Shown: positions 1-28,784, counted from the stretch's first letter. The stretch is DNA of 35,634 nucleotides from Actinomycetes bacterium (GCA_022396035.1 JAIOXO010000017.1:1-35634); one strand, 5' to 3'. Notes: a model not told the origin generated them from the sequence alone. Numbers and translations are program-made.

Positions 1-324
1 ATTTATAATCTTCTCTCCGGCAGTACTTAAAAAATTAAAATAAGGGGTCCCTTTCTGGGACTGAATAGAATCAATAAACATAATAAGGGTTAAAACCTCG
101 GGCAAATCCAGCGAAATCTTGGGCATAAAAAAGTCACTGGCCAGTGAATAACCCTCCCGGTCCGAATAAATGGGGATGCCGGCAAACCTCAGGCAATTAA
201 TGTCCCTGTAAACCTGCCGGGTAGAAATCTCTAACTCCTGGCCAATGGCCCGGGCCTTTATTTTACTGTAACGGCAGATTATAAGGATGATCCTTAACAG
301 CCGCCAGACATTAGAAACTTTCAT
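1..324 (-). CDS. WYL-type helix-turn-helix transcriptional regulator, N-terminal part (cut by window edge)
   Basis: The reverse strand reads from an ATG at 324 into the left edge without a stop, giving 108 codons. It begins MKVSNVWRLL and continues with an HTH_11-like winged helix: KIKARAIGQELEISTRQVYR, then a wing with FAGIPIYSDREGYSLA. This arrangement, with SxRTVxRDI-like spacing and a 'G(I/V)PI..xRGYxL' wing, is typical of the DeoR/HTH_11 regulators that carry a C-terminal WYL ligand-binding domain. The WYL domain itself would lie outside the window, so its presence is inferred. The gene is oriented like the helicase and nuclease genes to its right and lies downstream of them. WYL regulators are known controllers of several phage-defence loci, but a housekeeping role is equally possible. 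Confidence 0.75.
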   Translation of the reverse strand, partial: MKVSNVWRLLRIILIICRYSKIKARAIGQELEISTRQVYRDINCLRFAGIPIYSDREGYSLASDFFMPKISLDLPEVLTLIMFIDSIQSQKGTPYFNFLSTAGEKIIN

Positions 325-356
325 ACTAAAAACTAAAAAAGAACTATATTAAAATT

Positions 357-372
357 TTAATATTAATATTAA
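357..372. promoter_or_regulatory. 16-bp AT-only palindrome upstream of the WYL-type regulator
   Basis: TTAATATTAATATTAA is a perfect palindrome 33 bases upstream of the regulator's ATG, in an AT-rich gap. It could be an autoregulatory operator, but AT-only palindromes arise by chance in such gaps. Confidence 0.25.
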
Positions 373-434
373 CATATAAACTTTAAATATAAAATTTAAT
401 CTGAAAAGACTGTATAATCAAAACCAGTGCCTAT

Positions 435-2180
435 TCAGTCTAAATTTAATAATCCTTTTACCTCTTCATTTACCAGCATAATAAGGCCTGCCTTAGCCCG
501 GGACATTCCTATATATAGTAGGCTCTTATAGTAATCCAGATGGGCCCTATTCTCATTCATATCATCAAGATCTACAATAATAATATAAGAGTTATCCATG
601 CCCTTGAATTTATGAATAGTACTGTAAGTATAGGTATTTCTATCAAAGAATCGCTCAAAATCCTGGGATAGGTTAATAATATCATGCTTTTTAGTAATAC
701 CTTTTACCGTGGACTTTTCCAGTACATGCGGGGATAGAATGGTAATATCTCTGGGTCTGACCTTGTGAAGGCTTAAGCTATGTATCTCTTCTAAAAGCAA
801 CCCCAATGTATCCTTTCTATCCTTATAAAACTTATAGGTAACCGGAATGCCCGATGCCTCATCCTTTAATATATTATGGTTCTCAAACCCCACCACCCTG
901 CTTATCTCCCGGGCTATTTCTATGGTATTCCTGCAATTTATGGTTAGACTATAAGGGGTAAATAAACACCTGGACTGCAGCTGTTTAAAAATTTCCAGGC
1001 TGTCAGTATCTTCATTAAATATATTCTGCCTTTCAAAATCACAGAATATATCCCATCTGCCCTCTTCTATCCCTCCTTTAAGCAGCATATCTATTAAATC
1101 CAGGTATTCCTCACTTAAAATATCCTGGCCTTCATCTATAATTATCTTGTCAAATTTTTCAAACTTATCCCCATCTAAAGCTTCCAGAGCATAAAGGGGA
1201 AGATCTTTTTTGTAATACTCATTATTTTTCTTAACCCCCGGGGGCATACAATCCCTGGCTATCTCTTCTGAATAATCCAGAAATGCCATAGCTTTTACCC
1301 CTTTATCAAAGCCCTGTAATCTTAGCTGGGTGCCCAGCCACCCTGCTAACAGTTTATTAAAACAGGTAATAAGGGTCTTATTACCGGCAGCAGCACTTCT
1401 CTTGGCAGATTCAAGGGCCAGCATGGTCTTGCCGGTACCAGCCGCCCCTTTAAACAAGCAGCGTGGATTTCCCTGCTCCAGTCCATCCAGGCAACGGTAT
1501 TGTTCATCGGTAAACCTGGCTATAATATGCTCTATCTCTTCTACTCTGGAGCAAATTATCTTGATCTTTTCAAAATCCCCCTTAAGCATATTTTTCAAAG
1601 TTTCAACACTTTTTCTGGAAGGAAAAGAATGCACGGGGTCAAACCATTTATGCTTCTTGTAAATATCAGCGCTACGTTTAGACAGCAAAGATATATAGTC
1701 TTTAAGGGGCATGTCCATCTGTCTTCTGTCATAAATTCTCCAGGCATCGGTTTCAGCATCCTCAATATCATATTCATTGCCGGTAAAGATAAAACCGTAA
1801 GATACAAAAAGTTTGTAGTATTTACTGTTAGGACCCAGCCTCTTCTTTATGAGGCCCTTTAAATTATACATTCCCTCTGCAGCCTGCTGCAGGGGGCTTA
1901 TGGTTTTTTCATAATACCGGCCCTGGCTATCGGAGATAATCCAGACACCATCTTTTCTACAGATGCTTCCCCCTTTTACTTCCAGACAGAATATGCCCAG
2001 ACCGGGTGCCATTACCAGAAAATCTATTTCAGAACCGAAACTCTGGTCAGACTCGGGTATGTTTAATGAATGTAGTACGATCCAGTCTGCAGGTGTTTGT
2101 TCTTTGAATAAATCAAATACTAAATTTTCGCCTATATTTCGATTTGAACTATCTACATAGGGCGGTATCATCTTAGCCAT
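435..2180 (-). CDS. NERD nuclease-related domain fused to a UvrD-like helicase
   Basis: A 581-residue two-part protein. Residues about 15-130 form a NERD domain of the PD-(D/E)XK nuclease fold: E51-I-D53 and then CLEVKGG, whose E67 and K69 are the expected catalytic residues. Residues about 222-581 form a superfamily 1 helicase/ATPase: Q-motif FTDEQ (Q227), Walker A FKGAAGTGKT (243-252), Walker B IIIDEGQD (347-353), a late STIHKFKGMD motif, and the arginine-finger motif YIGMSRAKAG near the C-terminus. Such NERD-UvrD fusions are thought to unwind and cut DNA; many sit in defence or repair loci, but few have been tested. The protein is probably cytoplasmic. The gene lies 79 bases downstream of the DUF2779 nuclease on the same strand, so the two may be co-transcribed. 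Ribosome binding is weak (TTAGGCT). The region looks AT-richer than the core genes, which may point to transfer. Confidence 0.85.
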   Translation of the reverse strand: MAKMIPPYVDSSNRNIGENLVFDLFKEQTPADWIVLHSLNIPESDQSFGSEIDFLVMAPGLGIFCLEVKGGSICRKDGVWIISDSQGRYYEKTISPLQQAAEGMYNLKGLIKKRLGPNSKYYKLFVSYGFIFTGNEYDIEDAETDAWRIYDRRQMDMPLKDYISLLSKRSADIYKKHKWFDPVHSFPSRKSVETLKNMLKGDFEKIKIICSRVEEIEHIIARFTDEQYRCLDGLEQGNPRCLFKGAAGTGKTMLALESAKRSAAAGNKTLITCFNKLLAGWLGTQLRLQGFDKGVKAMAFLDYSEEIARDCMPPGVKKNNEYYKKDLPLYALEALDGDKFEKFDKIIIDEGQDILSEEYLDLIDMLLKGGIEEGRWDIFCDFERQNIFNEDTDSLEIFKQLQSRCLFTPYSLTINCRNTIEIAREISRVVGFENHNILKDEASGIPVTYKFYKDRKDTLGLLLEEIHSLSLHKVRPRDITILSPHVLEKSTVKGITKKHDIINLSQDFERFFDRNTYTYSTIHKFKGMDNSYIIIVDLDDMNENRAHLDYYKSLLYIGMSRAKAGLIMLVNEEVKGLLNLD

Positions 2181-2259
2181 TATAGCCTAATGTTTGGTGA
2201 TTATTATTTTAATATTATACTATAAAATTTAATATTAATCTTAAAAGATAATCAGCATT

Positions 2260-3810
2260 CTAATGGCAGGAGTCCTCCGCCAATTTATAAAGCTTCCTTA
2301 ATATAAAAATCATGCCTTCGGTATCCAGACCGCAGTAATCAATTAAATCCTTCCTTATTTTTTCTAACTGGATTTTATTAACTTCCTTTCCATCTTTAAA
2401 AAAACTGGTATTTAAAAACTTTAAGCTGGCCTCTTCACCATTTTTAATTTCCATATCACCATAGCTTATCCCGGTCAGCGCTGGCAGTACTCTTTTTAAA
2501 GAAGCGCTTCCCTTTTGCTTGCAGTTATAATAATAGAATTTGCCAAAAGGCTCATACAGGTCAGTTATCCTCCCTATAGCATCTTCTATCCACCAGGCAT
2601 GCTGGGGAAAGGCTTCGGCAAGTGCATTAAGGATTCCGATCTCAAAAGACTTGTAATATACCAATATGGAACCAGCAACAGGGATACCATCATGGCCATA
2701 CCCTAAAGCTTTTTTTAAATTATCCAGAAGCTCTGGCCTGGGATCATTTTGATCATCCTCTGCCAGAAAATAAAGGTTTTCAGGGAGGCCCTTAAGGTGT
2801 TTTAATATATGGCAGGAAAATTGAAAGGGGACATTCTGATAGGGCCCGGTACCATCAAATAAGGGGATGGCGGTTGAAAATGTTTCAAAATCAAGAAAAT
2901 ACAGGGGATACTCAAGCTGATCTAAAAAAAGCTTCAGAGCTTTACTATCCATAAATATACGGTTTTCTTTTATGGTTTTAATTTGAATTTGTTGTATGGG
3001 ATTAAACACGGAAGTATCCTCTATATCTAAAATTCTAGTAATACCGTTCTGGTATAAATCAAAAGCAAGATTCTTGCCCCGATAAAGCTCAAAAACATTG
3101 AATTCTGGCAGATTATTCCAGCATAAATCCTTTAGGGGACACTCATAAGGGTTATAACAATCTTTGCTCAGGGGCAAATGGGGACAGGTGCTGTCATTTA
3201 CCGTTTTTAGCATCAGGTTTACATTAGTTTCTACATCCTGTGCTAAGGCCTCTGCCTCTTCGGTTACATCTTCCAACAGAAAAAATTTTTTAGGATCTAT
3301 GGGTCCATCTTTTACAAAGTCCCGGTTCAGGTGCATTAGATAACATTTATCTATTTTTAAGCCCGCTCCCTGGTAGCAGTATTTTTGAAATGCTATATCA
3401 TGCTTGTTAATATCTTTTACCGAGGATGCACTTTTTACCTCAATGATATTCCAGGCATCGATACCGGAAGGCTGTAGAATATCTGCCCGTGCAAAAGTAT
3501 TTTTATAGGTAAAGGATGCTTCAAAAAGAGGGCGCCTACTATCATCGGAATCTGAATCAGGTCCATCAGTAAGCCGGGCCAGCTCTCTGGATCTGGTAAG
3601 CTCCGCTTCTACATCAGAGCCGTCACCTACCTCTATCCCTTGCGGAAATAAGGCCTTGGCCAGATTGCCCGCATCATGGCCCTGCTGGAAACGAAATCGG
3701 GTAGCTTCATCAAAAGGAGGAATTTTTTCGGGGTCATTTATAAGATACCAGAGGTATTTTAAGCATTGGATGCCTGCAATATATTTTGATTTTGACAGTA
3801 TGTTAACCAT
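2260..3810 (-). CDS. DUF2779 protein: Cas4/RecB-like Fe-S nuclease domain plus DnaQ-like exonuclease domain
   Basis: A 516-residue protein of the DUF2779 family. The N-terminal half looks like a Cas4/RecB-type nuclease. C16 (IQCLKYLWY) and a cluster at C218, C224 and C230 could bind a 4Fe-4S cluster. D110 (ARAD), E124 and K126 (IIEVKSA) followed by AFQKYCY match the PD-(D/E)XK and QxxxY motifs. The second half begins with YFLDFETFSTAIPLFDG; D307 and E309 resemble motif I of DnaQ/RNase-T-type 3'-5' exonucleases, and YCGLDTEGM near the C-terminus fits motif III. The protein could therefore hold two nuclease centres. The substrate is unknown; DNA repair or defence is an inference from the fold and from the helicase-nuclease next door. 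The start has an AGGGT-type ribosome site four to five bases upstream. Confidence 0.82.
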   Translation of the reverse strand: MVNILSKSKYIAGIQCLKYLWYLINDPEKIPPFDEATRFRFQQGHDAGNLAKALFPQGIEVGDGSDVEAELTRSRELARLTDGPDSDSDDSRRPLFEASFTYKNTFARADILQPSGIDAWNIIEVKSASSVKDINKHDIAFQKYCYQGAGLKIDKCYLMHLNRDFVKDGPIDPKKFFLLEDVTEEAEALAQDVETNVNLMLKTVNDSTCPHLPLSKDCYNPYECPLKDLCWNNLPEFNVFELYRGKNLAFDLYQNGITRILDIEDTSVFNPIQQIQIKTIKENRIFMDSKALKLFLDQLEYPLYFLDFETFSTAIPLFDGTGPYQNVPFQFSCHILKHLKGLPENLYFLAEDDQNDPRPELLDNLKKALGYGHDGIPVAGSILVYYKSFEIGILNALAEAFPQHAWWIEDAIGRITDLYEPFGKFYYYNCKQKGSASLKRVLPALTGISYGDMEIKNGEEASLKFLNTSFFKDGKEVNKIQLEKIRKDLIDYCGLDTEGMIFILRKLYKLAEDSCH

Positions 3811-3878
3811 CTTACCCTAGATAAGTATAAATTAAACTTTTGTTATATCCGCGTTTAAACCGCATTGTTTTAAACTCC

Positions 3879-4574
3879 TTAATATCCAACAGCTTGGGCA
3901 CCATACTCAGCTTGCTGCCTTGTAAATCCTTCAAATTCGAGTTGAGCAATTAATTCAGTTCGTGAAAATGACGAATAATCTAAGTAATCTTCAGCCTTTA
4001 ATGCTGCTTGCTCATTCCAGTCGGCTCCGCATCTATCTACTCCATACACTGCTTCTTCATGTGTATATCCCTCAAACTTTAATTGCTCCACTAACCCACT
4101 ATAAGAAAAAGGCGCGTAGGCTAGGTAATTTAATGCACTTTTTGCTGCATTCTTTTCACCTAATGTTGCGCTATCTGTTTCTCCCGGGCTATCTACATTT
4201 TCTTCTTCAGCAGGTTCTTCTGCAACCTCTTCTTCTGGCTCCGCTTCCACTGTATCAGTTGAATTCAGATCTTCTTCAACAGCCAAAAGGTTAGACTTAG
4301 CTACACTGAGTTCCCGTTTTAATTCTTCTATGAGCTCATCCTTTTCCTCAAGTTGTTCCTGTTGCTCTTCAATTACGGCGATTTGTTCTTCTATAAGATC
4401 CTCATATTGACTGGTTTCAGTAGTATTTGGATTTTCTTCTCCTTCTTCCGGCTCTTTCGCCGTTTCTTCTGCCACCTCTTCTTTAGGTTCTACTGTTTCT
4501 AAACTTCCGCTGCAGCCAATAAAAGCAAAGCAGAAAAAAACCACAAAGAGCATAAAGATTGCCTTTTTAATCAT
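3879..4574 (-). CDS. Lipoprotein with coiled coil and two C-terminal Ltp repeats
   Basis: A 231-residue protein. The N-terminus is a lipoprotein signal (MIKKAIFMLFVVFFCFAFIGC) with lipid-attachment cysteine C21. An acidic Glu/Pro-rich stretch follows, then a coiled coil (about 56-105), another acidic linker, and two related segments at about 144-183 and 190-230. These have the pattern ALxYLxYxxFSxxxLxxQLxFEG(Y/F)TxxxAxYG, which is the Ltp family (host cell surface-exposed lipoprotein). The known member from phage TP-J34 blocks DNA entry of other phages (superinfection exclusion), but many Ltp proteins are chromosomal and uncharacterised. The protein should be anchored on the outer face of the membrane, with the coiled coil holding the repeats away from it. 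A good ribosome site (GGAGAGG) precedes the ATG. The gene sits just upstream of two nuclease genes. Confidence 0.85.
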   Translation of the reverse strand: MIKKAIFMLFVVFFCFAFIGCSGSLETVEPKEEVAEETAKEPEEGEENPNTTETSQYEDLIEEQIAVIEEQQEQLEEKDELIEELKRELSVAKSNLLAVEEDLNSTDTVEAEPEEEVAEEPAEEENVDSPGETDSATLGEKNAAKSALNYLAYAPFSYSGLVEQLKFEGYTHEEAVYGVDRCGADWNEQAALKAEDYLDYSSFSRTELIAQLEFEGFTRQQAEYGAQAVGY

Positions 4575-4629
4575 AATAATACCTCTCCGTATAATTTTAT
4601 ATAGTTTTAAAAAATTTTACTTTTATATT

Positions 4630-5037
4630 CTATTTTAGATCCAAGTTATCACCACAATAAGATTCAATATTAAAGGAAAACATATCCACCGGTCTGCCCT
4701 TATTCAGCAAAGTGACACAGTAGCTACCCTGGGGCAGATAACCCTGCTTTAAAACTATCCCTCCACTGTAAATATTTTTCCTTTTTGCTGAAAGATCATT
4801 ACTTCTATAAATTTCCTTTCCTCCCAGCATCCACAATAATTCTATTTCAGAATCTTCGTTTAAATTATTAATACAGACATCCACCATCAGTATATTGATA
4901 TTACCTTTAATAACCCCTTCCTGCATGCGGTAGATATTAAACTGGTAATCAAAGCCCTGGACAGCGTCCAGATAAATCTCTTTACAAGACTGCTTTCTAC
5001 ACCTGTCCCTACTGCTATTTATAGCCCCCACAGACAA
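4630..5037 (-). CDS. Uncharacterised small beta-rich protein (TTG start)
   Basis: A 135-residue protein that I do not recognise. The second half, with LPQGSYCVTLLNKGRPVDMFSF, has the alternating pattern and 'G-x-Y' strand of an immunoglobulin-like or similar beta-sandwich domain that often ends extracellular proteins. No signal peptide is visible at this start. The start is set by AAGGGG placed before TTG at 5037-5035. An ATG four bases upstream (5041) is out of frame and reaches a stop after eight codons. The N-terminus holds two nearby cysteines (RCRKQSC). The gene lies 55 bases upstream of the Ltp lipoprotein on the same strand, so a common surface-related role is possible but not shown. 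Confidence 0.6.
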   Translation of the reverse strand: MSVGAINSSRDRCRKQSCKEIYLDAVQGFDYQFNIYRMQEGVIKGNINILMVDVCINNLNEDSEIELLWMLGGKEIYRSNDLSAKRKNIYSGGIVLKQGYLPQGSYCVTLLNKGRPVDMFSFNIESYCGDNLDLK

Positions 5038-5135
5038 TCATCCCCTTCTTAAATTCTATTGGCAAACTATAATTTTACACCAGGTCCTTACCAACAGTTT
5101 GTCAGTATAGAAAATAATTATTTAAAGCACCCTAT

Positions 5136-5164
5136 TTGCCCCTTTCACCTGAGGCTAATATAAT
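5136..5164 (+). promoter_or_regulatory. Promoter of the acyltransferase gene, predicting a leaderless mRNA
   Basis: A -35 box TTGCCC (5136-5141, 4/6) lies 17 bases before a perfect -10 TATAAT (5159-5164). The predicted transcription start (about 5171-5174) coincides with the ATG at 5174. No Shine-Dalgarno sequence stands at the proper distance; the nearest GAGG is 20 bases upstream of the ATG and would not be transcribed. Confidence 0.55.
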
Positions 5165-5173
5165 AGCCATATC

Positions 5174-6307
5174 ATGAATGATATATATAAAAAATCCAGG
5201 ATTGCCTACCTGGATAACCTTAAAGTCCTGCTTACTGCCCTGGTTATAATAGACCACGCGGCAATAACCTATGGCCCGGTAGGCTTCTGGTACTTTCGCC
5301 AGCAAACAGCCACCTCCTATCCCCTGGCATTTATTATCAGCCTGCTGCAAACCTTTATGATAGGACTGTTCTTCCTAATAGCCGCCTACTTTATAATCCC
5401 CTCCTATAACCGTAAAACCCCTGTAGATTACTTCTACAGCCGCCTGAAAAAACTGGGTATACCGGTTATCTTATACATGATCCTGATAAGTCCCCTGCTG
5501 GCCTATATAAGCCAGATAAGGGAAGGCCAAAAAAATTTCTTAACCTTTTATGTTCGTACCGTAATCCACAAACAGTATATAACCCCGGGACCCCTGTGGT
5601 TTCTGCAGGCCTTGCTGGTATTTACCATAACCTATCTGGTAATAAAAGCGGTAGGTGACCGATACCTGTCTTCCCGCTACCAGACCGGAAGGTTAAACTT
5701 TCCCTCCAACCTGAATATCCTCCTGTTTATCCTGGGCCTGGCGGCCCTTTCCTTTTTAACCAGGATCTGGTTTCCCATAGGCACCGCTACCGGTAACCTG
5801 CAGCTGAGCTTTGTGTTCATATACCTGGCCCTGTTTGTCCTGGGTATCATCTCTTACCGTAACCACTGGTTGAAAAATCTAAACCGCCGTCAGGCCCTGC
5901 TCTGGCTGATACTGGCTGCAGTATTTATACCACTATGGCCTGTCATTATGGCCGGCGCCAATGCCTTCAGCGGCAATGCCGCCTTAATTTATGGGGGATT
6001 TAACTGGCAGTCTGCAGCTTACAGCCTGTGGGAGTCAGTAGTAGGTATGGGTCTTACCATGGGACTATTGTACCTGTTTAGGGAAAAGATTAACCTTAAG
6101 ACCAAGTTTACATCAGCCTTATCTGCCAGCGCTTATGCAGCCATAATAGTGCATCCGGTAATTGTGGTACTTCTCTCTTTTAGTCTGATAGATGTCAACT
6201 TGGGTCCTATATTAAAATTCTTGCTGGTATCAGCAGCAGCCGTACCTTTATGCTTTACAGCCGGTTTCCTGCTTAAAAAGATACCGGCTGTAAAGCACAT
6301 ATTATAA
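5174..6307 (+). CDS. Membrane acyltransferase (acyltransferase 3 family)
   Basis: A 377-residue polytopic membrane protein. RIAYLDNLKVLLTALVIIDHAAITYG matches, over its length, the N-terminal signature of the acyltransferase-3 (OafA/WecH-like) family, with H34-type catalytic histidine in the DHAA motif. About ten hydrophobic segments follow, including the PGPLWFLQALLVF motif that is conserved in the family. Members move acetyl or other acyl groups onto exported sugars, peptidoglycan or lipids; the acceptor here cannot be read from the sequence. The gene stands alone between divergent and downstream same-strand neighbours, with a 154-base gap to the next gene. Its last codons contain a long perfect inverted repeat (6251-6297). 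Translation probably starts without a leader. Confidence 0.82.
   Translation: MNDIYKKSRIAYLDNLKVLLTALVIIDHAAITYGPVGFWYFRQQTATSYPLAFIISLLQTFMIGLFFLIAAYFIIPSYNRKTPVDYFYSRLKKLGIPVILYMILISPLLAYISQIREGQKNFLTFYVRTVIHKQYITPGPLWFLQALLVFTITYLVIKAVGDRYLSSRYQTGRLNFPSNLNILLFILGLAALSFLTRIWFPIGTATGNLQLSFVFIYLALFVLGIISYRNHWLKNLNRRQALLWLILAAVFIPLWPVIMAGANAFSGNAALIYGGFNWQSAAYSLWESVVGMGLTMGLLYLFREKINLKTKFTSALSASAYAAIIVHPVIVVLLSFSLIDVNLGPILKFLLVSAAAVPLCFTAGFLLKKIPAVKHIL
6251..6297. repeat. 15-bp perfect inverted repeat inside the 3' end of the acyltransferase gene
   Basis: TGCTTTACAGCCGGT (6251-6265) and its exact reverse complement (6283-6297) flank a 17-base loop. The hairpin ends 8 bases before the last base of the stop codon. 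There is no T-run after it, so it is not a standard intrinsic terminator; it could protect the mRNA 3' end or cause pausing. Confidence 0.8.
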
Positions 6308-6461
6308 GTCCAGGCCCACATTCAAACTTAAATCAAAACAATATCATAGCACAACAGCCTGACAACTGCCGGTCATAGATAAAAAATTTTATTTTTTATT
6401 AAAACATTTATAGATTTAGTAGTACAATTATTAAAGGTTATAAATTTTAAAGGATGAGATA

Positions 6462-7400
6462 ATGCTTCAAAATAAAAAGAGGTTTCTACTCATACTAATT
6501 ACCGCCATATTCCTGATATCAGCCACCATACCCTCCACCCTGCTTGCAGATCAGGGCACCGACGTACAGAACTTTGTTATAAGGTTATATGAAACCTGCC
6601 TGGGCAGAAGCCCCGATCCAGGCGGTCTGCAAAACTGGACCACCCACCTTGTTTCGGGAGATATAAGCGGCGGACAGGCTGCCTACGGGTTTATCTTCAG
6701 CGATGAACTGATAGGCCGGAACCTGAACAACGAACAGTTTTTAATTATTATGTATAAAGCCTTTTTTGGGCGTGAACCCGATCCATCAGGTTTTTCCAAC
6801 TGGCTCCAGGTTATGGCCCGGGGAGAATCCCGCCAGCAGGTGTTTGCCCATTTTGTAAATTCAGAGGAATTTGCCAATATCTGCACCAGCTACGGCATAG
6901 AGCCAGGTTCAGTAAAAGTAAGGGAAACCACCAGAGAAGGAACAGGGGACAGGGATGACCTTATTAAAGGTAGCGATCAGTTCTACTCGCTTATAACCAG
7001 AGCCCTTAACCTTTTGGCTACCTATGACCCCGAAGTATATCAGCAATACCGGCTGGCAGAAAGAATAATAGAAACGCCGCAACAGAATGCCCTGGCCTCA
7101 ACCGATGGGAAAAATGTCTATATTGATCTCTCCAAAAGGGTATTTTATGATATTGAATTTGAAAAAGAAATTGCCTGTACCCTGTCCCATGAATTCAACC
7201 ATATAGCCAACTGGGATTACTACCGTGATAGCCGAGATTACTATGGCATGGAAATAATGGCCTTTACCCAGGAGTACTATACCGCATCCCGGCTGGGCAT
7301 GCCCGCCCACTTTCTAAACTATATTGCCTGGATTATAGATAACATCTATTACCTCTACCATGCCTATACCCCTGATTATGCCCAGAATATACTAAATTGA
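6462..7400 (+). CDS. Secreted DUF4214 protein with a C-terminal HExxH zincin-like domain
   Basis: A 312-residue exported protein. Residues 1-29 form a signal peptide ending near TLLA-DQ. Residues about 34-140 are a DUF4214 domain with its two repeats, recognised by YETCLGRSPDPGGLQNW and YKAFFGREPDPSGFSNW. The C-terminal part contains HEFNH (243-247), the zinc-binding HExxH signature, followed by E264 and E271 in MEIMAFTQEYY, either of which could be the third ligand of a gluzincin. This suggests a surface or secreted metallopeptidase, though the HExxH region matches no named family I know. The start has AAAGGAT eight bases upstream. The gene ends five bases from the convergent small gene at 7406. 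Confidence 0.75.
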   Translation: MLQNKKRFLLILITAIFLISATIPSTLLADQGTDVQNFVIRLYETCLGRSPDPGGLQNWTTHLVSGDISGGQAAYGFIFSDELIGRNLNNEQFLIIMYKAFFGREPDPSGFSNWLQVMARGESRQQVFAHFVNSEEFANICTSYGIEPGSVKVRETTREGTGDRDDLIKGSDQFYSLITRALNLLATYDPEVYQQYRLAERIIETPQQNALASTDGKNVYIDLSKRVFYDIEFEKEIACTLSHEFNHIANWDYYRDSRDYYGMEIMAFTQEYYTASRLGMPAHFLNYIAWIIDNIYYLYHAYTPDYAQNILN

Positions 7401-7405
7401 TTCCC

Positions 7406-7600
7406 CTATTTTTTACCACTAAATCTCTGGACCCAGGTCTGCAGCAGATGATGGTCAATATGGGTATTCTTTTCCATATAAAGTATCCCCTCTTCACTGG
7501 ATATCAGCTTTAGAAGGTCATCTATGGATTTAATACCCATAAACGCCAGCTCTTCTATGTACTGGGGCTCCAGATCTTTAAAATCATTAACTCTGGCCAT
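7406..7600 (-). CDS. Small helical protein, helix-hairpin-helix-like
   Basis: A 64-residue cytosolic protein. LEPQYIEELAFMGIKSIDDLL resembles, over 20 residues, the first helix-turn-helix unit of DUF4332/helix-hairpin-helix proteins (proline-x-x-x-x-L-x-x-x-G-I-x-S-x-x-D-L-L), and the C-terminal part (LLQTWVQRF) could be a second helix. Related units bind DNA or mediate contacts in larger proteins; the role of a stand-alone copy is not known. The ribosome site is very strong (GAGGGGGGGG); the run of eight G (C on the plus strand at 7605-7612) is prone to slippage. A possible -10 TATAAT lies at 7646-7641. No partner gene is evident. Confidence 0.6.
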   Translation of the reverse strand: MARVNDFKDLEPQYIEELAFMGIKSIDDLLKLISSEEGILYMEKNTHIDHHLLQTWVQRFSGKK

Positions 7601-7763
7601 ATTACCCCCCCCTCTTGTAACTTTATTTACATTTTAGATGATTATAGCACCAAGCCATATGTAACAAAAGTTATTTTTTATTACTCCCCTGCAATTTTTT
7701 AGCCATTTTAATTTCTTCCCTTTGCTACTATAATTTTCTTATAAACAACTAAAAAAGGCGCTT

Positions 7764-8786
7764 ATGAAAGAAATAAACCTAACCAAACTCAGCCATCAGT
7801 ACTACCAACAGGGAAAAAGGCTGGTAGTACCCCTTCTGGGTTTTCCGGGAGTAGAACTGACCGGCAGCAATATAAAGCTGGCACAGCAGAACTTCGGGGA
7901 GCACTACAGAGCCATAAAAAAACTGGTTGACCGGTTTGAACCGGACTTGATATTTCCGCTTATGGACCTCTCCGTAGAAGCCAATGCCCTGGGCCGCTAC
8001 ACCCTGTTTCCCCAGGAAGATTCAGCCACCGTCCCCAAAAGAGAATTTGACCTGGAACAGATAGAAAAGCTTAAAAGTATAAACATCTCCTTTGACAGCA
8101 GGGTTCTGAGCTACGTAGAAACCATGAAACTTATGAGTGTGGGTCTTCCCTCCCAGGTTATAAGAGGGGCCTATATCACCGGACCCTACTCCACTGCCGC
8201 CCTTATCATGGGAGCTGACGATGCAGCCATGACCTCAGTCACCGAACCGGATAAACTGCATACCCTCTGTGACTTTGTAACCGAAAAAATAAGGGAGTAT
8301 GTAAGCCTGCTGCTGTCGGCAGGAGCAGAAGCCATATGTGTACTGGAGCCCACTGCAGTAATGCTGGGACCCAAACAGTTTGAAGAATTTTCTGCCCATT
8401 ATGTTAAACATATTATAGACAGCATCCACTACAGCCAGGCCAGCACCATTTACCATACCTGCGGCAACACCATGCATCTTATAGAAAAAATGGTACAGTC
8501 AGGCATTGATGCTATCAGTCTGGATTCTGAAGATATGGGTGTAGACTTAAAAAAGGTAGCAGAGATGATATCCCCTGAGGTAGTAGTTATGGGAAATATA
8601 AACCCCTCTACCATCATGCTTAGAAATACCCCGCAGCAAATCAAACAGAAGGTTAACCATCTTCTACAACAGATGGAAGAATTTCCCAACTACATCCTTA
8701 GTACCGGCTGCGATCTTCCCCAGGAAACTCCTCCCCAAAACATTGATGCCTTCATGCAGGCAGGAAGGCAGTGGAGGCCCACTTAG
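7764..8786 (+). CDS. Uroporphyrinogen decarboxylase-family methyltransferase, MtaA/CmuA-like
   Basis: A 340-residue TIM-barrel protein of the UroD family. It carries the zinc site of the methylcobamide:coenzyme M (MtaA/MtbA) branch: H231 and C233 in YHTCGN and C316 in STGCDLP. True HemE proteins lack this thiol-zinc site. Other family landmarks are GAYITGPYSTAA (substrate loop) and VVVMGNINP. The branch moves methyl groups between a corrinoid protein and a thiol or other acceptor, as in methanol, methylamine or O-demethylation systems. No corrinoid protein or other methyltransferase lies nearby, so the substrate is unknown. A TATAAT at 7729-7734 and AAAGGCG before the ATG give a plausible own promoter and ribosome site. 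The stop shares four bases with the convergent zinc-ribbon gene. Confidence 0.82.
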   Translation: MKEINLTKLSHQYYQQGKRLVVPLLGFPGVELTGSNIKLAQQNFGEHYRAIKKLVDRFEPDLIFPLMDLSVEANALGRYTLFPQEDSATVPKREFDLEQIEKLKSINISFDSRVLSYVETMKLMSVGLPSQVIRGAYITGPYSTAALIMGADDAAMTSVTEPDKLHTLCDFVTEKIREYVSLLLSAGAEAICVLEPTAVMLGPKQFEEFSAHYVKHIIDSIHYSQASTIYHTCGNTMHLIEKMVQSGIDAISLDSEDMGVDLKKVAEMISPEVVVMGNINPSTIMLRNTPQQIKQKVNHLLQQMEEFPNYILSTGCDLPQETPPQNIDAFMQAGRQWRPT

Positions 8787-23823: not shown

Positions 23824-23851
23824 ATTATAGCTTCAAAAACTTAGATGTCAA
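23824..23851 (-). promoter_or_regulatory. Perfect sigma70-type promoter of the 3D-domain gene
   Basis: TTGACA (23851-23846) and TATAAT (23829-23824), both exact consensus, with a 16-base spacer. Transcription should start near 23817. The LexA-type palindrome begins 20 bases upstream of this -35 box, so LexA could affect both directions. Confidence 0.75.
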
Positions 23852-23870
23852 GGCTCAGAAAATTAAAAAT

Positions 23871-23888
23871 ACTATACATATGTATAGT
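23871..23888. promoter_or_regulatory. Putative LexA operator (18-bp perfect palindrome)
   Basis: ACTATACATATGTATAGT reads the same on both strands. It covers the -35 box (TATACA, 23873-23878) of the lexA promoter, the place expected for an autoregulatory operator. It does not match the CGAAC-N4-GTTCG core of Bacillus and mycobacterial SOS boxes or the CTG-N10-CAG box of E. coli. Confidence 0.65.
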
Positions 23889-23901
23889 TATAAGCTATAA
23901 T
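23873..23901 (+). promoter_or_regulatory. Promoter of the lexA-dnaE2-dinB operon
   Basis: TATACA (23873-23878, 4/6), a 17-base spacer and a perfect TATAAT (23896-23901). Predicted start near 23908, 12 bases before the lexA ATG; the AAGGTG ribosome site (23908-23913) falls at the very 5' end of the message. Confidence 0.6.
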
Positions 23902-23919
23902 AATGGCCAAGGTGAAAAC

Positions 23920-24528
23920 ATGAAAAAGCTTACCGTCAAACAACAACAGGTACTCAAAAACATAAGCCAGTTTATATCGGAAAAGGGCTATCCCCCTACC
24001 ATAAGGGAGCTGGCCCGGCGCCTGGGCTTTGCCTCCCCCAAAGCAGTAAGCGACCACCTGGCAGCACTGCAAAAGAAGGGTTATATAGATAAAGAGCCCC
24101 TGGCCAGATCCATAAGGATTACCGGTAAGGGCGGACTGGACCCTTCCCTAAAAAGACTCCAGGTACCGCTGATAGGAAACATAGCCGCAGGATCTCCCAT
24201 GCTGGCAGAACAGAATATAGAAACCTACATCAGCATACCCGATGATCCCGGGGGAAGGAAAATTGACTTCGCCTTAAGGGTAAAGGGTGACAGTATGACC
24301 GGAGATCACATACTGGATGGGGACATAATACTGGCCCGGTCACAGCCAACAGCCGAAAACGGGGATATAGTAGTGGCCCTTATAGGCGATGAAGCCACTG
24401 TAAAAAGATTTTATCTAACCGGCCAGTACCTTGAGCTCAGGCCTTCCAACCCCTCCTATAAGCCTATCCGGGCTGACGGGGACATTACCATACAGGGAAA
24501 AGTGCTTTCTGTCTACCGGATGCTCTAA
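23920..24528 (+). CDS. lexA: LexA SOS repressor
   Basis: A 202-residue repressor-protease. The winged-helix DNA-binding domain (1-68) includes YPPTIRELARRLGFASPKAV and DHLAALQKKGYI. The S24-type domain has the Ala-Gly cleavage site in GNIAAG (A90-G91), the catalytic serine in KGDSM (S125) and the catalytic lysine in EATVKRF (K162). On RecA-ssDNA signalling the protein cuts itself and releases its regulon. The start at ATG 23920 has AAGGTG six bases upstream; an ATG 75 bases earlier would add residues unlike LexA and would lie before the predicted transcription start. It heads an operon with two polymerases; dnaE follows after nine bases. Confidence 0.96.
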   Translation: MKKLTVKQQQVLKNISQFISEKGYPPTIRELARRLGFASPKAVSDHLAALQKKGYIDKEPLARSIRITGKGGLDPSLKRLQVPLIGNIAAGSPMLAEQNIETYISIPDDPGGRKIDFALRVKGDSMTGDHILDGDIILARSQPTAENGDIVVALIGDEATVKRFYLTGQYLELRPSNPSYKPIRADGDITIQGKVLSVYRML

Positions 24529-24537
24529 GGGGGTTTT

Positions 24538-27500
24538 ATGTTCTGCCATCTTCACCTTCACAGTCAGTACAGCATCCTCGAATCCAGTATCGCCATAGAG
24601 GATCTGGTGCAGGCTGCCTGCAGGCACCAGATGGAGGCGGTGGCCCTTACCGACAGAAATGTAATGCATGGAGCCATAGAATTTTACAGCCGGGCCCGCA
24701 GGGCAGGGTTAAACCCCATACTAGGGTGCCAGGTATATGTTAGGACAGAAGGTGTATGGAGCCTGGTTCTGCTGTGTAAAAATGAGGCCGGCTACCGTAA
24801 CCTGTGCCGCCTGGTAAGCCGGGCCCATACCCAGAAAAAGGAGCCGGTTCCCTGTCTGGATCCAGAGCTAATAAGAGCGAACTCATCCCACCTTTTTGCT
24901 CTTGGCCCGGTCAGGCAGGGCCAGATATCGGTATTGCTCAAGCAGGGCCAGGACAGCCAGGCCCGGAAAGCACTGCAGTTTTACCGGGAACTGTTTGGCT
25001 CCAGTTTCTATCTGGAAGTTCAGAGATATCCTGCCGGCTGCATGCAGGCCGGATGTTCGGAGGCCATAATCAATTTTGGCCTAAAAAACAAAGTGGAACT
25101 GGTAGCCACCAATGATGTGCATTACCTGAAGCAGGGTAACTACTCCGACTACCAGGCCATGTACAGGTTAAAATCCATGTCTACCAGAATCGACCCCTAC
25201 CTTGGGCCGGTAGAAGGAGACCAGCACTATTTTAAGACCGCCGGCCAGATGCAGAGCCTGTTTGCAGACCTGCCCTCAGCCATATCCAATACCCGGGCCA
25301 TAGCCGGAAGCTGTAAACTTGACCTTAAACTGGGCAGCCTGGATCTGCCCCGGTTCAAGCCTCCCTACCCCTGCAGCCAGGCAGACTACCTTAAAAAACT
25401 CTGCTGCCGGGGACTGGAAAAAAGATACAGGCAGCCGCAGGCCTCACTGTACCGCCGGCTGAACTATGAGCTGGATACCGTATCTGATATGGGCTACAGC
25501 GGCTACTTTCTTGTAGTCTGGGACATAGCCAGGTTTGCCCGCCGCAACCACATACCCATATGCGGCAAGGGGTCTGCTGCCGGTAGCCTGGTTTCCTATG
25601 TGCTGGGCATTTCCGATGTAGACCCGGTAAAAAATAATCTCTACTTTGAACGGTTCTTAAACCGCCAGAGAAAGCAGCCCCCGGATGTGGATATGGATAT
25701 TGCCCATAAAGACAGGGAAAAAGTAATAGAGTACCTGCAGTCCAGGTATGGTACCAAAAAGGTAGGCCGGGTCTGTACCTTTGCTACCATAAGGCCCCGG
25801 GCGGCAGTAAGGGAAACCTCCAGAATGCTTAATTACAGCAAACAGGAAACAGACCAGCTGCTGCTGGACTTAAGGTATGAAAAAAACCACACTGAAACCG
25901 GCTACCGGGAACTGTCCCTGCTGTCCTCCAAGATATCCAGCCGCATCAGGCATCTATCCACCCATCCTTCAGCAGTTATAGTATCCAACCAGGACCTGGA
26001 AGAAAAAGTGCCCATGATACTTTCTGCCGAAGGAAAGCTTATGAGCCAGTATGACATGGACAGCATAGAAGCACTGGGAATATTAAAGATAGACCTCATA
26101 AACTCCCTGAGCCTTACCCTTATACAGCAGGTAACCGCCATGCTGAAAACCGAAAACCACAACCTGGACCCAAACAACATACCCGGAGATGATCCCCGGG
26201 TTTTTAACCTGATGGCCAGAGGGGCCACCCTGGGGGTATTTCAGCTGGAAAGTACCGGCATCAGGAGCCTGATGCGGAAATTAAAGCCGGCCAGCATCCA
26301 GGATATAGCCCTGCTGCTGTCCCTTTACCGGCCCGGTCCCCGGCAATCGGGCATGGTAAAGGATCTTATCCAGAGAAAGTTTGGCCGGCAGAAGGTTACC
26401 TACCTTCACCCTGACCTTAAACCCATACTGGCTGAAACCTGCGGGATAATAGTCTATCAGGAACAGGTTTTAAGAATTGCCCGCAAGATAGCCGGTTCCT
26501 CTTTCAGCCAGGCAGACCTTTTAAGGAGGGCCATAACCAAAAGGTCAAAAAGCAGGATGCAGCTTCTAAAGCAAACCTTTTTAAACGGAGCCGTAAACAG
26601 GGGTTATTCACCCGGAACAGCCGGGCAGATCTTTGGCTATATATCCAAGTTTGCCAGCTACGGTTTCCTTAAAGCCCATGCTGCCGCCTATGCCCGGCTA
26701 AGCTATGCAACCTGTTACCTTAAGGCCTATTATCCTGCCCATTTTCTAGCCGTAATCCTCTCCAATGGATCCGGCTACTACCCGGCAGCCCAGTATGTGC
26801 AGGAAGCAAGGAGATTAGGGATAACCATACAGCCTCCCTGCATAAACGGCAACGGCTTACGGTTTATACCCTGCAAGAAAGGCAGGTCCATAAGGGTTCC
26901 CCTTATAACCGTAAAGGGACTGGGCCCGGTTACTGTAAACCATATAATAGAAGAAAGAAAAGCCGGAGGAGCTTTTGAAAATTTTACCGACTTTTGCCAG
27001 AGATGTCTGGAGCAGGGCAAAATAAGCAAAGCGGCAGTCCAGAACCTTATAAAAGCAGGGGCTTTTGATTTTGCCGCTTCCAACCGAAAAAGACTCCTGT
27101 TATACTTCTGGCAGAAGCAGAAAAAAGAAGGGCAGGATATGGGCCTGGGCCTGATAACCGACTTTTGCCTGGAAGAAAAAATCAAAATAGAAACAGAGCT
27201 TCTGGGATTTGCCGCTGCTGCCAGCCCCCTTGCCTGCTACCGGCAGCAAATGGAAAAACTGAACACTGTCGACAGCAGCAAATTTCACCATGGAAGCCAG
27301 GTTGCTGCTGCAGGAATGGTAATAAACAGAAGGATAGAAAGAACAAAGAATGGTGAGGATATGCTTTTCTGCACCCTGGAAGATGAAGGGGGCATGTATG
27401 AAGTCCTGTTCTTCCCCCCGGCTTATCGCCAGTACAAAAGAACTGTTACCGGCCATCCGGCACTTGTGGTAAAAGGCAGAGTAAACTACAGGGACGGCAG

Positions 27501-27633
27501 CCTTACGGTTATAGGGTATAAAGCCTGGAGCCTGGAAAACCTGGAAAAGGCCGGTCAAAATTTAAAAGATAACCATATTAGAAATCAGCTGCTGGCAGAA
27601 GCTAAACCGTTATGGCCAAACCGACTAAAATAA
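24538..27633 (+). CDS. dnaE2: DNA polymerase III alpha subunit, DnaE2/ImuC-like (error-prone type)
   Basis: A 1031-residue C-family polymerase, the short length typical of DnaE2/ImuC rather than of replicative DnaE. The PHP domain begins CHLHLHSQYS, but two usual metal ligands look changed: R40 follows TD where active PHP domains have His, and Q65 (GCQVYV) replaces Glu. The palm has the KGSAAGSLVSYVLGISDVDP loop and catalytic PDVDMD (D383, D385) with D519 in LKIDL. Fingers, helix-hairpin-helix (VKGLGPVTVNHI) and an OB-fold domain (about 920-1010) follow. A loss of PHP proofreading would fit translesion synthesis. It starts nine bases after lexA behind AAGGGGG and overlaps dinB by 22 bases, so SOS induction is likely. 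Confidence 0.9.
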   Translation: MFCHLHLHSQYSILESSIAIEDLVQAACRHQMEAVALTDRNVMHGAIEFYSRARRAGLNPILGCQVYVRTEGVWSLVLLCKNEAGYRNLCRLVSRAHTQKKEPVPCLDPELIRANSSHLFALGPVRQGQISVLLKQGQDSQARKALQFYRELFGSSFYLEVQRYPAGCMQAGCSEAIINFGLKNKVELVATNDVHYLKQGNYSDYQAMYRLKSMSTRIDPYLGPVEGDQHYFKTAGQMQSLFADLPSAISNTRAIAGSCKLDLKLGSLDLPRFKPPYPCSQADYLKKLCCRGLEKRYRQPQASLYRRLNYELDTVSDMGYSGYFLVVWDIARFARRNHIPICGKGSAAGSLVSYVLGISDVDPVKNNLYFERFLNRQRKQPPDVDMDIAHKDREKVIEYLQSRYGTKKVGRVCTFATIRPRAAVRETSRMLNYSKQETDQLLLDLRYEKNHTETGYRELSLLSSKISSRIRHLSTHPSAVIVSNQDLEEKVPMILSAEGKLMSQYDMDSIEALGILKIDLINSLSLTLIQQVTAMLKTENHNLDPNNIPGDDPRVFNLMARGATLGVFQLESTGIRSLMRKLKPASIQDIALLLSLYRPGPRQSGMVKDLIQRKFGRQKVTYLHPDLKPILAETCGIIVYQEQVLRIARKIAGSSFSQADLLRRAITKRSKSRMQLLKQTFLNGAVNRGYSPGTAGQIFGYISKFASYGFLKAHAAAYARLSYATCYLKAYYPAHFLAVILSNGSGYYPAAQYVQEARRLGITIQPPCINGNGLRFIPCKKGRSIRVPLITVKGLGPVTVNHIIEERKAGGAFENFTDFCQRCLEQGKISKAAVQNLIKAGAFDFAASNRKRLLLYFWQKQKKEGQDMGLGLITDFCLEEKIKIETELLGFAAAASPLACYRQQMEKLNTVDSSKFHHGSQVAAAGMVINRRIERTKNGEDMLFCTLEDEGGMYEVLFFPPAYRQYKRTVTGHPALVVKGRVNYRDGSLTVIGYKAWSLENLEKAGQNLKDNHIRNQLLAEAKPLWPNRLK

Positions 27634-28784
27634 TACATATAGATATGGATGCCTTCTTTGCCCAGATTGAGCAAAGAGACCATCCCCGGTACAAAAATGC
27701 CCCCCTTATAGTGGGAAGCCCGGTTAACCGGGGGGTTATATCTTCCGCTTCCTATGAAGCCAGGAAATACGGCCTTTATGCCGGCATGCCCATATCCCAG
27801 GCCAAACGGCTCTGTCCCCGGGGAGTATACTTGCCGGTGGACATGGAAAAATACCTGGCCGAATCGGAGGTTATAAGGGACATATTTTTCCAGTTTACTC
27901 CCCTGGTGGAAATGATAGGTTCAGATGAAGGCTTTATGGATGTAACCGGCTGCCAGAAACTGTTTGGTGAAGCGGTAGAGATAGCCAAAAAGATAAAGGG
28001 CAAAATTTATGAGCAGACCAATCTTACCTCCTCGGCGGGAGTGGCCTGCAACAAATTCTTTGCCAAGCTGGCCTCGGGCCTGGACAAGCCCAACGGCCTT
28101 ACCGTATTTGAAGACTGGAAAAAGGTAAGGGACAAAATAAGGGAGCTTCCCGTATCCTATATCTGGGGAGCGGGCAGAGTGGCCCAAAAAAACCTTAACA
28201 GCATGGGAATAAATACCATCGGACAACTGGCTGATACTCCGGAAGATATACTGCAGTCCAAATTCGGCCAACTGGGAAAAATCATGCACCAGCTGGCCAA
28301 CGGCATAGACAACCGCCCGGTAGTTCCCAACCAGGAACCCAAATCCATAGGCAGGGAAACCACCTACAGCCAGGATGTGGGTGACCTGGCAGTACTCCGT
28401 TCCACCCTTCTGGCTCTGGCCCAGAAAGTAGCCCACAACCTCAACCATAAACAGTACAAGGCAAAAACCCTGACCCTGAAGCTAAGGTTTGCTGATTTTA
28501 AGACCATAACCAGAAGCATCACATTAAGCCATTACACCTCGGATATCATGGAGATACACCGGGCATCGACCGCAGTGCTGGCCAAAACTGATATCCATAA
28601 AAAAAAGATAAGGCTTATCGGCATATCTGCCAGCAACTTAAAGCCTGCCTGCATGCTGGCCACCCTGTTTGAACAGCCGCAGCACCAGCGGGGCCAGAAT
28701 ATCACCGATGCCATAGAAAAAATTTCAGACAGATTCGGGCCGGACAAGATAACCCTGGCCCAAATTATGGATAAGCCCGGTTAA
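27612..28784 (+). CDS. dinB: Y-family DNA polymerase IV (DinB-like), catalytic residues intact
   Basis: A 390-residue translesion polymerase. IIHIDMDAFFAQIE carries D11 with steric-gate F16; SSASYEARKYGLYAGMP is the fingers region; SDEGFMD gives D105-E106. These are the three catalytic acids, so this is an active DinB, unlike ImuB, the inactive Y-family partner of DnaE2 in the usual imuABC cassettes. SSAGVACNKFFAKLAS and the helix-hairpin-helix INTIGQLADT follow, then the little-finger domain. The ATG lies within the end of dnaE2 (22-base overlap, no strong ribosome site), so translation is probably coupled. No other polymerase-accessory gene follows; the convergent THUMP gene shares the stop tetramer. 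Confidence 0.93.
   Translation: MAKPTKIIHIDMDAFFAQIEQRDHPRYKNAPLIVGSPVNRGVISSASYEARKYGLYAGMPISQAKRLCPRGVYLPVDMEKYLAESEVIRDIFFQFTPLVEMIGSDEGFMDVTGCQKLFGEAVEIAKKIKGKIYEQTNLTSSAGVACNKFFAKLASGLDKPNGLTVFEDWKKVRDKIRELPVSYIWGAGRVAQKNLNSMGINTIGQLADTPEDILQSKFGQLGKIMHQLANGIDNRPVVPNQEPKSIGRETTYSQDVGDLAVLRSTLLALAQKVAHNLNHKQYKAKTLTLKLRFADFKTITRSITLSHYTSDIMEIHRASTAVLAKTDIHKKKIRLIGISASNLKPACMLATLFEQPQHQRGQNITDAIEKISDRFGPDKITLAQIMDKPG

Follow-up and report, generated by a model that had tools for sequence, protein, structure and literature searches.

A tentative DNA-end-processing pair of DUF2779 nuclease and NERD-UvrD helicase beside a resident WYL regulator in an actinomycete

We tentatively interpret two adjacent genes of an actinomycete, encoding a DUF2779 nuclease and a NERD-UvrD helicase, as an accessory two-gene module for processing DNA ends that lies beside a passenger gene for an Ltp lipoprotein and between two resident genes, ORF5 and a WYL-type regulator; our confidence in this reading is slightly less than even. 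The genes occupy one end of a 35,634-nt window, which is the whole of contig C17 in a genome of 1.6 Mb (97.8% complete). An earlier note on this DNA had described four same-strand genes with HTH, NERD plus SF1 helicase, Fe-S nuclease plus exonuclease, and Ltp features, and all four are present, with the domains and the catalytic motifs of both enzymes in place. They are transcribed in the order Ltp, DUF2779, NERD-UvrD, WYL, all from the minus strand, and the gaps between them (68, 79, and 110 nt, respectively) do not suggest one tight operon or transcript. ORF5, also on the minus strand, falls just beyond the span considered earlier (1-4574) and mattered for the comparison of sites below. The features are as follows.

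1-324, minus strand: WYL-type regulator, N-terminal 108 aa (HTH_11), with the contig end inside the gene; resident flank.
352-379, no strand: AT-rich element ahead of WYL that includes ATATGTTAATATTAATA (361-377) and is also found in both sister species; putative promoter/operator of WYL.
435-2180, minus strand: NERD-UvrD protein, 581 aa, assigned from domain matches and motifs.
2224-2251, no strand: second copy of the WYL upstream element, 24/28 identical, ahead of NERD; putative WYL-controlled promoter.
2260-3810, minus strand: DUF2779 nuclease, 516 aa, with Cas4-like and DnaQ/RNase H-like domains, assigned from domains, alignment, model, and the domain description in PMC3985635.
3879-4574, minus strand: Ltp-family surface lipoprotein, 231 aa, with lipobox and repeats; probably an unlinked passenger.
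4630-5037, minus strand: ORF5, 135 aa, no Pfam family; resident flank that adjoins WYL in sister species G001 and G003.
5174-6307, plus strand: divergent acyltransferase (Acyl_transf_3); the outer resident flank, which G001 and G003 also have.

The other window genes belong to the core chromosome (PheST, ThrS, phosphoglucose isomerase, a POR-type oxidoreductase), and no recognized defense genes beyond the four were seen among the window genes scanned. At 23845-28784, LexA, a 1031-aa DNA polymerase III alpha, and a Y-family polymerase (IMS) follow one another in a single run that resembles an SOS mutasome cassette.

Catalytic features of the two enzymes

The DUF2779 protein matches PF11074 (7e-36, profile search) and, weakly, Cas4 over residues 105-233. 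Its N-terminal DUF83/Cas4-like PD-(D/E)XK nuclease carries D110, E124-x-K126, and Q142 together with cysteines 16, 218, 224, and 230, and its DnaQ/RNase H-like 3'-5' exonuclease domain has the DEDD-type residues D307, E309, and Y492-x3-D496, so that every hallmark of the family is found in one chain. In an alignment of 36 DUF2779 proteins, all of these residues are invariant save Cys16, which is nearly so. The predicted structure (pLDDT 93.6) is closest to type I-C Cas4 (E 6.8e-5), with weaker matches to Cas4 SSO0001, AdnAB, Exo5, and TREX1/2; by sequence, no solved structures were found to match. The earlier label of a Cas4/DnaQ-like nuclease is thus right, resting as it does on domain matches and on a confident fold that resembles Cas4 and, weakly, TREX1/2. 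The domain make-up is already published: PMC3985635 places DUF2779 in the 3'-5' exonuclease clade of the RNase H-like superfamily (F.17) and notes that it contains DUF83, an identical composition that makes the window protein a plain member. The part of PMC3985635 that treats the family describes it by domain make-up, without gene context or biological role. As for the Cas4 of CRISPR adaptation, neither Cas1 nor Cas2 occurs among the window genes scanned; the repeat search near the pair covered 300-5100.

The neighboring protein combines a NERD domain (5e-13) with UvrD_C_2 in a profile search, and PADLOC assigns it to RTasNERD-Hel (166 bits) and to "NERD+UvrD" (62 bits). The nuclease residues E18, D53, and E67-x-K69 are followed in the same chain by Walker A GAAGTGKT (245-252), Walker B DEGQD (349-353), and UvrD C-terminal motifs that include motif VI GMSRAK and R561; E18, D53, E67, K69, the Walker A lysine, the D-E-x-Q-D residues of DEGQD, and R561 are invariant among 13 NERD-UvrD relatives. 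The predicted structure (pLDDT 83.7) matches the helicases UvrD, SLFN11 (Schlafen), and Dna2, and this helicase fold, with the NERD, UvrD_C_2, and PADLOC matches, upholds the identification of a NERD protein with an SF1 helicase.

Known systems that employ such helicases have distinctive partners, and these were sought. Within 1-8786 no gene for a defense reverse transcriptase stands beside NERD-UvrD (the contig stops 435 nt beyond NERD), DrmA and DrmB (DUF1998) of DISARM are absent around the pair, and for Gabija there is no GajA OLD/TOPRIM nuclease, with GajB helicase matches that are weak, at about 32 bits or less. Elsewhere, NERD-UvrD is followed directly by DrmA-like and DrmB-like (DUF1998) genes at 6 of 20 NERD-helicase loci; this DISARM-like arrangement is seen at L062:5572-12829 and at L126, L205, L206, L208, and L217. 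In viral contigs neither protein was found; phage records held no DUF2779 and one weak, partial match to the NERD helicase.

The site in sister species and its regulator

The truncated regulator of the window matches HTH_11 (6e-10) and the PADLOC WYL profile (59.8 bits). Its assignment to the HTH plus WYL class takes the WYL domain from the full-length ortholog in G003 (72.7 bits), and a search of the other contigs of the assembly did not turn up the remainder of the window gene. The N-terminus is 86% identical to that of G003 (L203) and 85% to that of G001 (L204), and in both of these sister species WYL directly adjoins a homolog of ORF5 (36-40%) and the divergent acyltransferase (50-51%). 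The ORF5-WYL site in G001 and G003 lacks Ltp, DUF2779, and NERD-UvrD, all three of which lie in between in the window. Since WYL, ORF5, and the acyltransferase stay together without the block in both sisters, the three genes were either inserted here or lost there, and on this comparison WYL and ORF5 are resident genes in either case. The Ltp-DUF2779-NERD block shows no clear terminal repeats at its ends, and neither a transposase nor an integrase borders it; the repeats near 352-379 and 2224-2251 flank NERD alone and match the WYL upstream element. That WYL was an original part of an inserted block was considered and rejected, as it occupies the same position without the block in G001 and G003.

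The lipoprotein (Lipoprotein_Ltp, 6e-24, in two stretches) has the full architecture of its family: a lipobox (FIGC), a Glu-rich spacer, and two C-terminal Ltp repeats. Of the 35 family genomes, 4 have Ltp (PF07553); the three besides that of the window carry it and DUF2779 on separate contigs, and a search with the window protein found it neither in G003 nor in about 100 DUF2779 neighborhoods; no prophage genes were seen around it. Ltp is therefore probably an unrelated, unlinked passenger, in keeping with the caveat in the earlier note that the lipoprotein might be unrelated. That note had nevertheless raised a combined system, in which Ltp would block injection at the surface, the nuclease-helicase pair would act inside, and WYL would regulate all. 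Strand and order are shared, superinfection-exclusion lipoproteins have their prototype in the Ltp of phage TP-J34 (PMC3952083), and the WYL-like element is repeated before NERD, but Ltp is linked to DUF2779 or NERD nowhere else, which largely refutes the surface component; WYL resides at the site without the other three in two sisters, and the G003 pair has neither Ltp nor WYL beside it. We regard such a system as very improbable, and a four-gene operon was rejected on the empty site and the unlinked Ltp.

The core ATATGTTAATATTAATA upstream of WYL is common to the window and both sister species. The copy of this element upstream of NERD agrees at 24 of 28 positions, a level reached in 0 of 300 composition-preserving shuffles, and its presence there suggests that WYL may have been recruited. 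The core sequence TTAATATTAA is absent ahead of NERD in G003, G001, and G007, so putative control by WYL is supported in the window only; it is possible, though unproven, that the resident regulator has taken control of the inserted genes. G007 has a DnaJ-like gene and a HIRAN gene after its NERD-helicase gene (L061:2338-5365), and homologs of the latter two lie downstream of WYL and DUF2130 in G003 (L203:11136-14860), suggesting a variable site in common.

WYL genes also accompany DUF2779 far from this genus. In Omnitrophota, 7 of 18 DUF2779 loci have a downstream WYL (L143, L145, L146, L148, L149, L154, and L156), and of the 12 WYL genes in the 17 DUF2779-bearing genomes, 7 follow DUF2779 on its own strand at a distance of no more than about 1.2 kb. 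Chance would give 0.005 as compared with the seven observed, a calculation that ignores relatedness and is not to be taken at face value; the WYL-linked sequences fall into two separate tree clades, hence there were fewer than seven independent events. On plasmids, WYL lies directly downstream in Aliarcobacter and Rhodoferax and upstream in Sphingobium; across the Omnitrophota loci and the plasmid loci L123, L124, and L125, it is adjacent or one gene off, mostly directly downstream and on the same strand. On a Selenomonas plasmid, WYL is 3.3 kb from DUF2779 on the opposite strand. The literature searched held no mention of a DUF2779-WYL link, which is a stronger association than that of DUF2779 with NERD. 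Because WYL is a recurrent neighbor in other phyla, its place beside the window DUF2779 may not be pure accident.

Recurrence and company of the pair

Among the 35 genomes of the family, 24 encode DUF2779 and 4 encode NERD-UvrD; both occur only in the window genome (G000) and in G003, and they are adjacent in each. The G003 pair, on contig C199, has its two genes the other way round, 21 nt apart, and adjoins an O-methyltransferase gene. The congener G002 (98% complete) has neither gene. In the DUF2779 tree, the family sequences form one clade with a single Woesearchaeota sequence, so descent within the host family appears largely vertical, and the G000 and G003 sequences are sisters inside that clade, from which it follows that DUF2779 is the lineage's own gene and that the pairing probably arose once in the genus. 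The adjacency search proposed earlier found the pair again outside the family: in Azospirillum brasilense, NERD-UvrD and DUF2779 are divergent neighbors, and on Selenomonas pSRC1 they share a strand but are separated by 3.8 kb that holds AAA, phosphoesterase, and hypothetical genes.

Recurrence of this kind could also arise if two unrelated nuclease genes entered the same permissive sites, the repeated encounters reflecting common defense islands. Among 297 Actinomycetota (24 genomes with DUF2779, about 25 with a strong NERD-helicase match), co-occurrence is not above chance, with both genes only in G000 (observed 1, expected 2); NERD lies near DUF2779 at 0 of 52 loci (18 in Omnitrophota, 34 in Woesearchaeota); and the intervening genes in Selenomonas and the loose window gaps fit chance as well. 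Yet the genes are adjacent in both family genomes that have both, in opposite orders and at different sites, and adjacent again in Azospirillum, and we judge mere coincidence improbable. The pair, as gauged by these gene neighborhoods, is real but rare. Of the two observations that the earlier note would have counted against its four-gene cluster, the unlinked Ltp was found; the pair is indeed seldom adjacent, though not unique to the window.

Relatives of both enzymes occur in defense loci, as had been claimed: NERD-UvrD stands before DrmA and DrmB, and DUF2779 directly follows QatABCD on the Aliarcobacter cryaerophilus plasmid pACRY43158 (L131:4298-13279). Helicobacter has DUF2779 in the vicinity of HaeIII R-M, and in Woesearchaeota its immediate neighbors are a DUF3320 helicase and type III R-M. 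The QatABCD-DUF2779 stretch lies inside a region bounded by SbcCD and dgt whose contents differ among the related plasmids L131, L132, and L133. In the host family, DUF2779 usually lies beside an HD nucleotidase and metabolic genes, with 12 loci in the HD/YfbR-type nucleotidase cluster. At L144:7600-16632 (G497 C12), a 3010-aa open frame joins DUF2779 to HD, DeoC-like, and nucleoside deoxyribosyltransferase-like regions, and on Arcobacter plasmids (L131-L133) a dGTPase is a few genes away; this fusion and the HD/YfbR and dGTPase neighbors hint at a link to nucleotide metabolism.

Possible role and relation to known systems

We posit that NERD-UvrD loads onto exposed or unusual DNA ends and would unwind them at the expense of ATP as its NERD domain introduces nicks, and that DUF2779, much like AddAB/AdnAB, would then digest the strands, attacking one with its Cas4-like Fe-S domain and trimming 3' ends with its DnaQ-like domain; this joint action and its polarity we infer from the domains and motifs. 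The likeliest substrate would be incoming phage or plasmid DNA, the main alternative being repair of the cell's own breaks, and WYL may repress NERD through the copy of WYL's own upstream element. If the task were housekeeping, DUF2779 would be a resident end-trimming exonuclease and NERD-UvrD an accessory repair helicase, the two acting on the cell's own broken DNA. The mostly vertical descent of DUF2779, its presence in about two-thirds of the family genomes (24/35), and its nucleotidase and metabolic neighbors suit a cellular role, as do the otherwise core chromosome of the window and a Clostridiales UvrD/Cas4-like operon without defense context (PMC5704561). Against repair speak the patchiness of NERD-UvrD (4/35), the lack of both genes in G002, the different sites of the pair in sister species, and the defense settings of distant relatives, and we consider it unlikely, though a serious contender. 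Because NERD-UvrD is patchy and the pair sits at different sites in close relatives, a role in defense is somewhat ahead of repair. A bolder and improbable extension is that DUF2779 could supply the central nuclease of a WYL-controlled anti-phage family, so far undescribed and widely scattered, with interchangeable ATPases or helicases (NERD-UvrD, AAA, DUF3320-type, or none), the window module having moved beside the resident WYL and come under its control via a copied operator.

A helicase with a Cas4-like nuclease is a known kind of arrangement, of which the window pair appears to be a variant. UvrD-Cas4-like fusions and operons (Hudaiberdiev et al. 2017, PMC5704561) likewise unite an SF1 helicase with a Cas4-like nuclease, some of them with type III R-M and WYL regulators and others without defense context. 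Their Cas4-like domain is of the pfam12705 type and is either fused to a plain UvrD or encoded next to one, whereas the window genes are adjacent and unfused, DUF2779 has an added DnaQ-like domain, and the helicase has its own NERD nuclease. AddAB and AdnAB, the latter among the structural matches, similarly apply an SF1 helicase and an Fe-S PD-(D/E)XK nuclease to DNA ends; the window differs in having two separate proteins with predicted extra NERD and DnaQ-like activities, and the systems are not orthologous. The NERD-UvrD of DISARM-like and RT-associated loci (RTasNERD-Hel, NERD+UvrD) belongs to the same helicase family, but that of the window has no recognized DrmA, DrmB, or reverse transcriptase alongside. 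BrxR and the CBASS-associated WYL factor (PMC9122601, PMC9122588) are likewise HTH plus WYL regulators beside nuclease genes, in contrast to which the window WYL appears to predate an insertion at the site and sits downstream of the genes it possibly controls.

The window and its sister species offer a clean example of a nuclease-helicase pair at different sites, one of them beside a resident regulator, a situation that bears on how defense genes acquire regulation. As a by-product, the DUF2779-WYL linkage is the most useful result: its recurrence in several phyla, along with the links of DUF2779 to helicases or ATPases in defense neighborhoods, makes a testable candidate of a common orphan domain with two active sites.
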